Shown here one piece after another: positions 2,447 to 11,261 of a stretch of DNA of 64,000 nt; position 1 is the first letter of the stretch, and every line of letters starts with the position of its first letter. The notes below the pieces were generated by a model. The model saw nothing but the letters and a program-made list of their open reading frames with translations. It did not search any database and was not told the origin of the DNA. The stretch is taken from positions 720,591-784,590 of the forward strand of contig NZ_BMFO01000001.1 of assembly GCF_014638745.1 (NCBI RefSeq), written 5' to 3'. Source of the DNA: Arenimonas maotaiensis (GTDB lineage: Bacteria; Pseudomonadota; Gammaproteobacteria; Xanthomonadales; Xanthomonadaceae). The position numbers and the translations under genes are program-made.

Positions 2447-2457
2447 GCGCCCACGCG

Positions 2458-2478
2458 AAGTGACGCATTGCGTCACTT
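2458..2478. repeat. Nine-base-pair inverted repeat after etfA
   Basis: AAGTGACGC and GCGTCACTT flank the three bases ATT directly downstream of the etfA stop. There is no T-run behind it, so it is more likely an mRNA 3' stem or a protein site than a terminator. Confidence 0.5.
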
Positions 2479-2517
2479 CCTGACGCAGGCTGTCGCAACG
2501 TCGGCGAACCTGCAGTG

Positions 2518-2545
2518 AAACGGCCCGAACGGGCCGTTTTTTTTT
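2518..2545 (+). terminator. Rho-independent terminator of etfBA
   Basis: The stem AAACGGCCC/GGGCCGTTT closes a GAAC tetraloop and runs into nine T residues (2537-2545). It lies 70 bases after etfA and before the promoter of the polysaccharide locus, so it separates the two units. Confidence 0.9.
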
Positions 2546-2566
2546 GCGAAATCGAACGAACAATCC

Positions 2567-2595
2567 TTATCAATCAGCAAGGCGCGCTTTATACT
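2567..2595 (+). promoter_or_regulatory. Sigma-70 type promoter for the polysaccharide locus
   Basis: TTATCA (2567-2572) and TATACT (2590-2595) are separated by exactly 17 bases. Transcription would start near 2602 and give a leader of about 100 bases before the epimerase start. That leader contains two possible small hairpins (GTGACAGCCATCAC near 2605 and CCGGGCGACTCGTCCGG near 2645). Confidence 0.6.
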
Positions 2596-2700
2596 GTCGT
2601 CTTGGTGACAGCCATCACGCTTTCGGTGACGGCACGCGGAACGCCGGGCGACTCGTCCGGTCCTCCGCGGTTGAACAGGATTTTTCAGGGGACATTTCGG

Positions 2701-3681
2701 ATGCAGCAAAAAGAGACTTATCTGGTCACCGGCGGCGCCGGTTTCATCGGTTCGCACCTGTGCGACGAACTGCTGGCGCAAGGCCACCGCGTCATCGTGA
2801 TCGACGACCTGTCGACCGGCTCGAAAGCGAACATCGCACACCATCTGGACAATCCGGATTTCGAATTCCACCACAACACGGTGACCAACTATCCGCTGAT
2901 GGAAAGCCTGGTCAAGCGTTGCGACTACATCTTCCACCTGGCCTCGGTGGTCGGCGTGCAGAGCGTGATCGACAGCCCGGTCAAGACCATCGAGACCGGC
3001 GCACGCGGCATGAACATCCTGCTCAACCTGGCCGAACAGTACGACCGCACCGTACTGTTCACCTCGACCTCCGAGGTCTACGGCAAATCGTCGAAGCTGC
3101 CGTTCTCCGAAGACGACGACCTGCTGTTCGGCGGCACCCATATCGGCCGCTGGTCGTACGCCTGCAGCAAGGCGCTGGACGAATTCCACGCGCTGGCCTA
3201 CCACCAGGAGCGCAAGCTGCGCATCGTGGTGGTGCGTCTGTTCAACACCGTCGGTCCGCGCCAGTCGCCGAACTACGGCATGGTGATCCCGCGCTTCGTG
3301 AAGTTCGCCCTGGCCAACCGGCCGATTCCGGTATACGGCGACGGCAGCCACCGGCGCTGCTTCGGCTACGTCAAGGACGTGACTTGGGCCCTGCGCCGCC
3401 TGATCAAGCGCCCCGAATGCTACGGCCGCGTGTTCAACATCGGCTCCAACGAGGAAACCTCGGTGCTGGACCTGGCGCACAAGATCAAGGCGCAATTGGG
3501 CAGCGAATCCGAGATCGTGTTCGTGCCCTACGAGCAAGTGTACGGACCCGGCTTCGAAGAGACCATCGACCGCGCGCCGGACACCCGCCGCGTGCGCGAG
3601 GCGATCGGCTTCGATCCGCAGACCACGCTGGCCGAGATGATCGACCTGGTCGCCAAGCTGCAGACGGCCGAACATGCCTAA
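2701..3681 (+). CDS. NAD-dependent sugar-nucleotide epimerase/dehydratase (extended SDR)
   Basis: This 326-residue cytosolic enzyme would make or interconvert the UDP-sugar precursor for the polymer encoded downstream. The Rossmann motif GGAGFIG (residues 11-17), the DDLSTG loop that grips the NAD ribose, the SVVGVQSVIDSP segment and the catalytic pair Y153/K157 (SYACSKAL) are present. RLFNTVGPRQS and the VYGDGSHRRCFGYVKD block resemble UDP-glucuronate decarboxylases and UDP-hexose/uronate 4-epimerases, and the exact reaction is not resolved. I chose ATG 2701, which follows GGGGACATTTCGG; the frame is open upstream but that part crosses the terminator and promoter. The stop overlaps the next start by eight bases, so it is the first gene of a coupled operon. 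Confidence 0.88.
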   Translation: MQQKETYLVTGGAGFIGSHLCDELLAQGHRVIVIDDLSTGSKANIAHHLDNPDFEFHHNTVTNYPLMESLVKRCDYIFHLASVVGVQSVIDSPVKTIETGARGMNILLNLAEQYDRTVLFTSTSEVYGKSSKLPFSEDDDLLFGGTHIGRWSYACSKALDEFHALAYHQERKLRIVVVRLFNTVGPRQSPNYGMVIPRFVKFALANRPIPVYGDGSHRRCFGYVKDVTWALRRLIKRPECYGRVFNIGSNEETSVLDLAHKIKAQLGSESEIVFVPYEQVYGPGFEETIDRAPDTRRVREAIGFDPQTTLAEMIDLVAKLQTAEHA

Positions 3682-9826: not shown

Positions 9827-9844
9827 CGCGATTGTGCATGAACG

Positions 9845-9872
9845 AAAAAACCCCGCCTCGGCGGGGTTTTTT
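9845..9872. terminator. Bidirectional terminator between convergent units
   Basis: AAAAAACCCCGC, a CTCG loop and GCGGGGTTTTTT form a perfect 12-base-pair stem. It ends both the polysaccharide locus (+) and scoAB (-). Confidence 0.95.
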
Positions 9873-9892
9873 CTTGCGCGGACGGACGCGGA

Positions 9893-10522
9893 TCAGCGCA
9901 ACAGCGGCACGCCGGTCTTGGCCTGCACGTCCTCGAACGACACCTCCGGCGCCAGCTCGACCAGCGCCAGGCCGGCCTCGGTCACGTCGAACACGCCGAG
10001 CTCGGTGATGATGCGGTCGACCACGCCCAGGCCGGTCAGCGGCAGGGTACAGGCCGGCAGGATCTTCGGCGAGCCGTCCTTGGCGGCGTGCTCCATCAGC
10101 ACCACCACGCGCTGCACGCCGGCCACCAGGTCCATCGCGCCGCCCATGCCCTTCACCATCTTGCCGGGCACCATCCAGTTGGCCAGGTCGCCCTTGTCGG
10201 TCACCTGCATGGCGCCGAGGATGGCGAGGTCGATGTGGCCGCCGCGGATCATCGCGAACGAGTCGTGGCTGCCGAAGTAGCTGGCGCCGGCGCGCGCGGT
10301 CACGGTCTGCTTGCCGGCGTTGATCAAATCGGCGTCCACTTCGTCCTCGGTCGGGAACGGGCCGATGCCGAGCAGGCCGTTCTCGCTCTGCAGCCAGACG
10401 TCCATGCCGTCGGGGATGTGGTTGGCGACCAGGGTCGGCAGGCCGATGCCCAGGTTCACGTAGGCGCCGTCGCTCAACTCGGCGGCGGCGCGTTTGGCCA
10501 TGTCATCACGGGTCCAAGCCAT
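9893..10522 (-). CDS. scoB: 3-oxoacid CoA-transferase subunit B
   Basis: The 209-residue beta chain carries the catalytic glutamate in SENGLLG and the family blocks [15 protein letters not shown] and [14 protein letters not shown]. With ScoA it moves CoA from succinyl-CoA to acetoacetate. That fits the tyrosine operon 7 kb away, which produces acetoacetate. The gene follows scoA by ten bases. In Xanthomonas the homologous pair is named lpsJ/lpsI because it sits in the LPS locus beside metB; the same order here is strong evidence of synteny. Confidence 0.95.
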
Positions 10523-10532
10523 GTCGTTCTCC

Positions 10533-11234
10533 TTATGCCGTGCGCACGGTGCGTTGTTCGATGCGTTTTTCCGGGCCGGCGTTGACCACGATGCGGTCGA
10601 CGTAGATGCCCGGGGTATGGATGGCGTCCGGATCGAGCGCGCCGACCTCGACCAGCTCCTCGACCTCGACCACGCAGACCTTGCCGGCCATGGCCACTGC
10701 CGGATTGAAGTTGCGCGCGGTCTTGCGGTACACCAGGTTGCCGGAGGCGTCGGCCTTCCAGGCCTTGACCAGCGACACGTCGGCGCGCAGGGCGGTCTCC
10801 AGCACGTAATGCTTGCCGTCGAACTCGCGCGTCTCCTTGCCCTCGGCCACGATGGTGCCGTAGCCGGTGCGGGTGAAGAAGGCCGGTATGCCGGCGCCGC
10901 CGGCGCGCAGGCGCTCGGCCAGCGTGCCCTGCGGGTTGAACTCGAGCTCGAGCTCGCCGGACAGGTACTGGCGCTCGAACTCCTTGTTCTCGCCGACGTA
11001 GGACGAGATCATCTTGCGGATCTGCCGGGTGTTCAGCAGCATGCCGAGGCCGAAGCCGTCGACGCCGGCGTTGTTGGAGATCGCGGTCAGACCGGTCTTG
11101 CCGGAATCGCGCAACGCGGCGATCAGGGCCTCCGGAATGCCGCACAGGCCGAAGCCGCCGACGGCGATGGTCTGGCCGTCGCGGACGATGTCGCGCAGGG
11201 CATCACTGGCGCTGGCGTAGAGCTTGTTCTTCAT
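10533..11234 (-). CDS. scoA: 3-oxoacid CoA-transferase subunit A
   Basis: The 233-residue alpha chain has the glycine-rich CoA loop [14 protein letters not shown] and the [14 protein letters not shown] and [13 protein letters not shown] blocks of SCOT family A subunits. I start it at ATG 11234 (MKNKLYAS), which has GAGGA about eight bases upstream; the open frame goes eight codons further. It is first of the scoAB pair, transcribed away from the metB-like gene that lies upstream on the same strand. Confidence 0.95.
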
Positions 11235-11261
11235 GGTGGAATCCTCGCTATGGCGCAAGTA

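Follow-up and report, generated by a model that had tools for sequence, protein, structure and literature searches.

The interval between etfA and metB in Arenimonas maotaiensis, analyzed here as part of a 64,000-nucleotide stretch of contig NZ_BMFO01000001.1 (the window), holds six genes that probably form a composite synthase-dependent exopolysaccharide locus, with a probability, in our estimate, of about two in three. The core of this locus, unit A, consists of an extended short-chain dehydrogenase/reductase (SDR), EPI, a glycosyltransferase of family 2 (GT2), GTB, and a predicted polysaccharide exporter, PgaAl. A second synthase module, unit B, made up of a YaiO-family barrel, a HEAT-repeat protein and another GT2 enzyme, GTA, is placed between EPI and GTB.

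In the scheme that we propose, EPI would make a uridine diphosphate (UDP) sugar; its most likely reaction is the decarboxylation of a UDP-uronic acid, which would give a sugar of the UDP-pentose type. GTB, judging from its predicted fold, would polymerize this sugar on the cytoplasmic face and move the chain across the inner membrane, and PgaAl would carry it through the periplasm and the outer membrane. In related loci, a TviB-like dehydrogenase would act earlier in the pathway, and a deacetylase of carbohydrate esterase family 4 (CE4) and a modified hydrolase of glycoside hydrolase family 10 (GH10) would act after it; the poly-N-acetylglucosamine (PNAG) and cellulose systems carry tailoring enzymes of their own. 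Each module probably makes a polymer of its own, both belonging to one matrix or capsule.

The host assembly comprises 2.16 Mb in 16 contigs. Since etfA ends at position 2446 and metB, on the minus strand, starts at 11262, positions 2447–11261 are the exact etfA–metB interval, with scoB and scoA inside. The six genes occupy positions 2701–9826 of the plus strand, between etfBA and scoBA-metB-cbs, and four of their five junctions overlap, by 8, 4, 8, and 4 bases; the sole non-overlapping junction is that between GTA and GTB, a gap of 166 bases. A sequence-only reading of this DNA had described these borders, the six genes and the overlaps, and the open reading frames (ORFs) agree with it on these points; two of its gene labels change, as described below.

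Unit A is a conserved but scattered three-gene set found well beyond the Xanthomonadaceae. When one genome was scanned for each GTDB species, 118 relatives emerged, of which 80 were kept as named loci; many of these are metagenome-assembled genomes (MAGs), with taxon labels taken as given, and they include Lysobacter, Luteimonas, Rhodanobacter, Oleiagrimonas, Thiobacillus, Halothiobacillus, Guyparkeria, Marinobacter, Sulfurimonadaceae, Aminicenantes, Gemmatimonadetes, Nitrospirae, and others. EPI lies at most 141 bases upstream of GTB in 77 of the 80 loci, the exceptions being L221, where the contig starts just before GTB, and L220 and L235, which have no EPI. PgaAl follows GTB in 79, the contig of L187 ending at this point. 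Unit B was detected in none of the 80, either by BLAST or with GTA, YaiO, and HEAT profiles. When the unit B profiles were run over 89 loci, only locus L157 was positive (its own YaiO protein is part of the profile), aside from weak GTA matches (at most 33 bits among those listed) that fell on GTB itself. Within the Xanthomonadaceae, GTB relatives are present in 30 of 149 genomes (E 1e-20); the 29 genomes other than that of the window divide into 14 with EPI, GTB, and PgaAl together and 15 with a GTB relative alone. Among 369 genomes of the class, 10 including the window's contain GTB (E 1e-40), and the other nine all have an SDR and PgaAl as well. A search of plasmids with GTB returned nothing at E 1e-40.

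The etfA–metB setting emphasized in the sequence-only reading holds as an address in this genus but not as a property of the system, as unit A has different surroundings in Lysobacter, Thiobacillus, Marinobacter, and others. The same interval is known from print as a lipopolysaccharide (LPS) interval of Xanthomonas and Stenotrophomonas (excerpts of PMC2238763), and the six genes could accordingly belong to an O-antigen or LPS-modifying locus. We consider this very improbable. The six proteins match no flippase, polymerase, or ATP-binding cassette (ABC) exporter family in Pfam or NCBIfam (the latter among the best 25 families for P0001 and P0004), as had been claimed at the outset; the exporter is predicted to fold like those of secreted exopolysaccharides; and the surroundings of unit A change from genus to genus.

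The predicted structures of GTB and PgaAl instead point to a synthase-dependent system, bearing out by fold and family what had been proposed from the sequence: both a GT2 synthase and a tetratricopeptide repeat (TPR) region with a 16-strand barrel are predicted. The AlphaFold model of GTB (mean predicted local distance difference test score, pLDDT, 85.4) aligns with hyaluronan synthase (HAS) at Z 25.3 over 358 residues with a root-mean-square deviation (rmsd) of 3.5, and with BcsA entries at Z 19–22, except for one polyalanine model at 16.4. By fold, GTB is thus predicted to be a membrane-embedded, HAS/BcsA-like GT2 synthase, which may be processive. A QxxxW motif followed by SS[SA]F is present in 77 of the 80 loci, three being outside the pattern; its fourth residue is Leu in 59, Met in 14, Phe in three, Tyr in one, and Arg in none.

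The PgaAl model (pLDDT 92.7) combines a TPR-like helical region (TPR_19) with 16 strands. The top five entries in the fold search are BcsC, PgaA, and PelB (Z 25.7–27.8), followed by an entry at Z 16.7, and the barrel superimposes on that of PgaA (entry 4y25, which we take to be PgaA) with an rmsd of 2.1 over 274 residues. A sequence search of solved structures with the same protein, P0006, gave no match at E 0.1. The reading frames of PgaAl reach 1,012 amino acids across relatives (start codons assumed) and differ in length, so the helical part is variable. The two YaiO-like barrels of the sequence-only reading are therefore one: P0002 belongs to the YaiO family, whereas P0006 is PgaA/BcsC/PelB-like by fold.

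EPI had been labeled an epimerase, and it matches the Pfam Epimerase family (2e-52), but its sequence resembles UDP-glucuronate decarboxylases more than epimerases. The best solved relative is human UXS1, a UDP-glucuronate decarboxylase, at 174 bits, with the next enzyme at 133. A profile of 20 EPI relatives run against solved structures places UXS1 first (228 bits), followed by an uncharacterized SDR (8vr2, 201) and two others (167 and 165), with ArnA at 165, WbgU at 147, and a dTDP-glucose dehydratase at 143 bits in lower rows. Among six reference SDRs, UXS1 scores highest and ArnA second for 20 of 20 family members. EPI carries TSTSEVYG and YACSK, that is, the [ST]SE motif and YxxxK of UDP-uronate decarboxylases (UXS and the C-terminal part of ArnA); [ST]SE also occurs in the Gmd reference and is insufficient alone for the assignment. 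The longer form, [ST]SEVYG, is exact in 74 of 77 EPIs, unlike the GalE reference.

The EPIs of the genus Arenimonas (the window, L162, L163, and L165) are only 37–45% identical to other EPIs, which are 45–86% identical among themselves (20 loci), whereas the GTBs of the same Arenimonas loci are 67–74% identical to those of Lysobacter (L166), Luteimonas (L174), and Oleiagrimonas (L179). The far greater divergence of EPI than of its GTB partner points to gene displacement: in this genus, a divergent enzyme of the same class probably took the place of EPI, or else EPI evolved fast.

Unit B, which has a small barrel of its own, is likewise a conserved synthase module. P0002 scores 70.6 bits against TIGR04390, the YaiO family model (cut-off 32), P0003 matches Pfam HEAT_2 (1e-16) and reads as having a hydrophobic N-terminus, and P0004 (GTA) is a GT2 enzyme with QxxRW, here QRARW, for which a search of solved structures gave partial GT2 matches only. 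In the 369 class genomes, GTA is found in 14 (E 1e-50) and YaiO in 21 (E 1e-10); in 12 of the 14 GTA genomes, the window's included, they are no more than about 5 kb apart on a single contig, with G244 having them on opposite strands. A HEAT protein accompanies GTA or YaiO where examined: between both in L082, beside GTA in L084, and as a piece with a profile match of 4e-9 in L157. Among the 149 Xanthomonadaceae genomes, however, it was found in two (E 1e-6), compared with 17 for GTA (E 1e-40), so the HEAT protein is either quickly diverging or often absent. Separately, at positions 9118–16282 of L087, TPR-barrel-like and HEAT-like proteins and a GTA relative adjoin, by eye, response-regulator-like and sensor-kinase-like genes, which suggests two-component control of unit B in that locus.

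The sequence-only reading took the six genes for a single system; they are two modules that occur apart elsewhere. For the history of the site, 17 genomes were fetched of the 23 same-genus ones with an etfA match; three further loci were from other genera. EPI, GTB, and PgaAl stand alone at the site in two same-genus genomes (G149 and G158), and unit A lies beside etfA in another (G159, locus L165). In G167, the site is empty, with one terminator-like stem-loop between etfA and scoB. Within the fetched stretches, the remaining same-genus genomes carry other DNA of variable length in the etfA–scoB gap, the scoA–metB gap, or both. The interval is variable in this genus. In G031, units A and B are on different contigs. 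Unit A probably represents the older core here, and unit B may have been inserted between EPI and GTB or lost by sister genomes. A second row of YaiO, HEAT, GTA relative (27% identity), SDR, GTB, and PgaAl occurs in another gammaproteobacterial family (G257, locus L157), where the HEAT frames are broken (MAG-like) and GTB has one stop. Two separate couplings of the units, in the window and in L157, argue for a working partnership between them. As a side observation, the same-genus loci L124, L128, L129, L131, L133, L135, and L139 also have variable DNA between scoA and metB, which are adjacent in the window.

Clues to the polymer of unit A come from the flanks of the relatives. A CE4 deacetylase is encoded downstream of PgaAl in 25 of the 80 loci and GH10 in 18; the GH10 matches in the flanks, among those listed, are all downstream of PgaAl and none elsewhere. 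A Pfam scan of 78 of the 189 listed downstream ORFs gave 17 GH10, 10 CE4, and five nucleotide-sugar dehydrogenases. Such dehydrogenases are present in the flanks of 10 of the 80 loci, and in L200, EPI, GTB, PgaAl, CE4, GH10, and a dehydrogenase stand in one row. From this flank search, only the CE4, GH10, and dehydrogenase positions are used; its PgaAl model included out-of-frame ORFs, and the counts that it gave for PgaAl and GTB (88 and 62) are set aside. The GH10 loci represent few independent lineages: most are Thiobacillus-like, and the others come from Sulfuriferula (L200) and Extensimonas (L233).

Taken at face value, this gene content suggests a pentose-based polymer, and plain xylan was the first reading that we entertained. 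Unit A and its neighbors would then supply UDP-glucose dehydrogenase, UDP-xylose synthase, beta-1,4-xylan synthase, and exporter, with a GH10 xylanase and a CE4 acetylxylan esterase. UDP-xylose synthase is the nearest solved enzyme to EPI, the GH10 proteins match their family at 8e-101 with xylanases as best solved relatives, and the CE4 family includes acetylxylan esterases (excerpts of PMC5855634). Two findings make xylan improbable. The first concerns the dehydrogenases, eight of which were assigned to classes (seven of the ten flank genes plus that of L158; L176, L218, and L224 were left out). The TviB model is best in seven of the eight (368–547 bits, tied with the general model in L158), and in the remaining one, from L240, the general family is best and TviB scores 228; all eight (228–547 bits) are below the 592-bit cut-off of the TviB model NF011729. 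The UDP-glucose dehydrogenase models give only 86–147 bits. The co-occurrence of TviB-like dehydrogenases with GTB is itself uninformative, as 145 of the 149 family genomes have one anyway.

The second finding concerns the GH10 active site, compared with 30 control loci kept from a search of the 149 Xanthomonadaceae genomes. The catalytic Glu residues are retained (acid/base in 17 of 17 readable proteins, nucleophile in 18 of 18). All 30 controls have Asn directly ahead of the acid/base Glu, but none of the 17 does; the residue is Ala in 16 and Ser in one (one more is unreadable). Another Asn, in NDYN, is replaced by Gly (NDYG) in all 18, where 26 controls have Asn and four have Ser. The first of these Asn residues is in contact with the 2-hydroxyl of the sugar bound at the -1 site. 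Taken together, the dehydrogenases and the GH10 changes favor a sugar with more than a hydroxyl at C2. In addition, Asp replaces the second His of HxLVWH in eight of the 18 unit GH10s (loci L185 to L233). A literature search found no bacterium that makes xylan in the titles and abstract openings of the matches listed; the papers on "bacterial xylan" there concern xylan digestion.

Given a decarboxylase acting on UDP-N-acetylglucosaminuronic acid (UDP-GlcNAcA) and a bulkier C2, the simplest sugar is N-acetylxylosamine (XylNAc). Poly-N-acetylxylosamine, a polymer of 2-acetamido-2-deoxyxylose equivalent to chitin without C6, is thus our tentative candidate for the product of unit A, although the odds are clearly against any one named polymer. 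The TviB-like enzyme would oxidize UDP-N-acetylglucosamine (UDP-GlcNAc) to UDP-GlcNAcA, EPI would convert the latter to UDP-XylNAc, GTB would polymerize it and PgaAl export the chain; CE4 would partly de-N-acetylate the polymer, and the GH10 variant would cut it, the missing Asn leaving room for the 2-acetamido group. A UDP-XylNAc pathway reportedly exists in Bacillus cereus, in which a dehydrogenase acts on UDP-GlcNAc and a UXS-like decarboxylase follows. We liken the two pathways by description only, and we know of no polymer or synthase for that of B. cereus.

The TviB-like dehydrogenases could also serve a hexosamine-uronate polymer like Vi antigen, with EPI as a C4-epimerase and GTB as the polymerase. 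They occur near unit A and in the family genomes, the window's own scoring 566 bits, and the SDR of L157, which lacks the Glu, may be an epimerase. We nevertheless consider a Vi-like product unlikely: P0001 scores just 85 bits with TviC, compared with 131–143 for other models, the [ST]SEVYG motif of the EPIs departs from GalE, and GH10 would be left without a role. Still more doubtful is a PNAG- or chitin-like hexosamine polymer with EPI belonging to another pathway. PgaC_IcaA is the best NCBIfam model for both GTA (104.8 bits) and GTB (44.3 bits), the exporter is PgaA-like, and a CE4 deacetylase follows in relatives. Yet both scores are far below the 422.3-bit cut-off of the PgaC equivalog model, and an SDR beside GTB in 77 of 80 loci, across many lineages, is too constant for a bystander. 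The remaining probability for the identity of the polymer falls to other polymers.

Several observations weigh against the interpretation of the locus as a whole, or against its parts. The top fold match of GTB is a mannosyltransferase, PcManGT (Z 27.4, 317 residues aligned), and GTB lacks the Arg of QxxRW. For P0001, the NCBIfam models LegB and RmlB (143 bits each) exceed the UDP-4-keto-pentose/UDP-xylose synthase model PRK11908 (131 bits, cut-off 294), all being far below their cut-offs, and no other UDP-xylose synthase model is among the best 25 of 86 NCBIfam families. The second solved match of the EPI profile, 8vr2, is an SDR of uncharacterized activity. The SDR of L157, reading SSCAVYG, has no Glu in the motif; this speaks against a decarboxylase there, and decarboxylation is thus not common to all loci. 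A genome search found no GH10 in the window's genome, and Pfam and NCBIfam revealed no deacetylase family among the six genes. Finally, the genomes sampled fit either a gain of unit B here or its loss in relatives. The two dehydrogenases of the window's genome that exceed the general cut-off, the TviB-like one among them, are not beside unit A, and the polymer is deduced from relatives whose EPIs belong to a different clade from that of the window.

A promoter and terminator scan of positions 2400–10000 found three promoter-like sites, compared with 0.6 in shuffled sequence, and two terminator-like sites, compared with 4.1. The terminator count being below that of the shuffles, the support for both stem-loops comes solely from the comparison with L162, L163, and L123. 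GTB and PgaAl are behind a promoter-like site of their own. Rfam gave no matches at gathering thresholds in positions 1–16000.

Table 1 Features of the etfA–metB region of the window.
Feature	Positions	Strand	Basis or remarks
etfB and etfA, left border	762..2446	+	ORFs; both recur by the interval in same-genus genomes
Terminator-like stem-loop and T run 3' of etfA	2517..2540	+	L162 and L163 have one at the same place (by eye)
Promoter-like TTATCA-17-TATACT ahead of EPI	2567..2595	+	9/12 consensus matches
EPI (P0001), opening gene of unit A, an extended SDR and probable UDP-uronate decarboxylase	2701..3681	+	
YaiO-family outer-membrane barrel (P0002), unit B	3674..4438	+	TIGR04390
HEAT-repeat protein (P0003), unit B	4435..5412	+	GTG start; Pfam HEAT_2; hydrophobic N-terminus
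GTA (P0004), GT2 synthase with QxxRW, unit B	5405..6892	+	Linked to YaiO in class genomes
Promoter-like TTGACA-16-TATAGT in the GTA–GTB gap	6904..6931	+	11/12 matches, best of the region
GTB (P0005), predicted membrane-embedded GT2 synthase, QTYLW replacing QxxRW, unit A	7059..8450	+	AlphaFold model; fold search
PgaAl (P0006), TPR-like helical domain and 16-strand barrel, predicted polysaccharide exporter, unit A	8447..9826	+	AlphaFold model; fold search
Terminator-like stem-loop and T run before scoB	9855..9867	+	Resembles one in the empty site of L123 (by eye)
scoB, scoA, metB, cbs, right border	9893..13860	-	ORFs; order kept in L122 and L123

Two further observations concern GTB relatives and unit A outside the etfA–metB site. 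In L047 (9605–11002), L058 (9028–10452), and 13 more loci, GTB relatives are 33–51% identical, with no EPI or PgaAl detected alongside; the motifs of the L047 relative are altered (DGET, no QxxxW), which looks like decay or repurposing. A chromosomal site seen in L033, L041, L047, L058, L084, and L086 is, by eye, near acyltransferase-like and LysR-like genes. What it contains differs among Xanthomonadaceae, being either unit A, a GTB relative by itself, or a set of HEAT, GTA, and barrel genes, and it appears to be a second polysaccharide hot spot.

Compared with known systems, the locus shares with the PNAG pgaABCD system a PgaA-type exporter, GT2 enzymes nearest PgaC in NCBIfam and, in some relatives of unit A, the downstream deacetylase, but besides the low PgaC scores, the six genes have no PgaB or deacetylase family match and a decarboxylase-like SDR instead. 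With cellulose bcs, it shares a BcsC-like TPR-barrel exporter and the fold of GTB, which is near BcsA, but there is no BcsB or PilZ match, and GTA reaches 15.6 versus 699 bits with the CelA model. The earlier claim that the locus matches none of cellulose, PNAG, alginate, or Pel thus stands insofar as the PNAG and cellulose features that could be tested are absent, and fails insofar as the exporter matches the known PgaA/BcsC/PelB class. The xag/sfz systems of Xanthomonas and iron oxidizers resemble unit A relatives in pairing a GT2 enzyme with GH10, and in a role in exopolysaccharide and attachment; in excerpts of PMC3609779 and PMC8250860, Sfz1 is BcsB-like and Sfz2 has a type II secretion system (T2SS) E-type N-terminal domain. 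The six proteins have no BcsB-like, T2SS E-type, or GH10 Pfam match, and the systems are set apart by their descriptions only. The E. coli yaiO-yaiX-yaiP-yaiS cluster resembles unit B in having a YaiO-family barrel near a GT2 gene. It has no annotated HEAT gene, however, GTA and YaiP are 22% identical over 248 amino acids (E 3e-7), and BLAST of P0002 against E. coli YaiO itself gave no significant match.

The suggestion that the locus may be of an undescribed type agrees with our literature search, in which no description of unit A was found in the titles and abstract openings of the matches listed. As far as searched, unit A is apparently undescribed; being synthase-dependent, it is a variant within that class and not a new category. 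Few synthase-dependent exopolysaccharides are known in detail. If our interpretation is correct, biofilm biology would gain a further matrix polymer, made by a conserved three-gene unit of many lineages, sulfur oxidizers, uncultured groups, and soil bacteria among them. Its neighbors predict a pentose backbone, perhaps of an amino-pentose. The unit would also point to a possible substrate of a distinctive GH10 subgroup whose members are probably annotated as xylanases.

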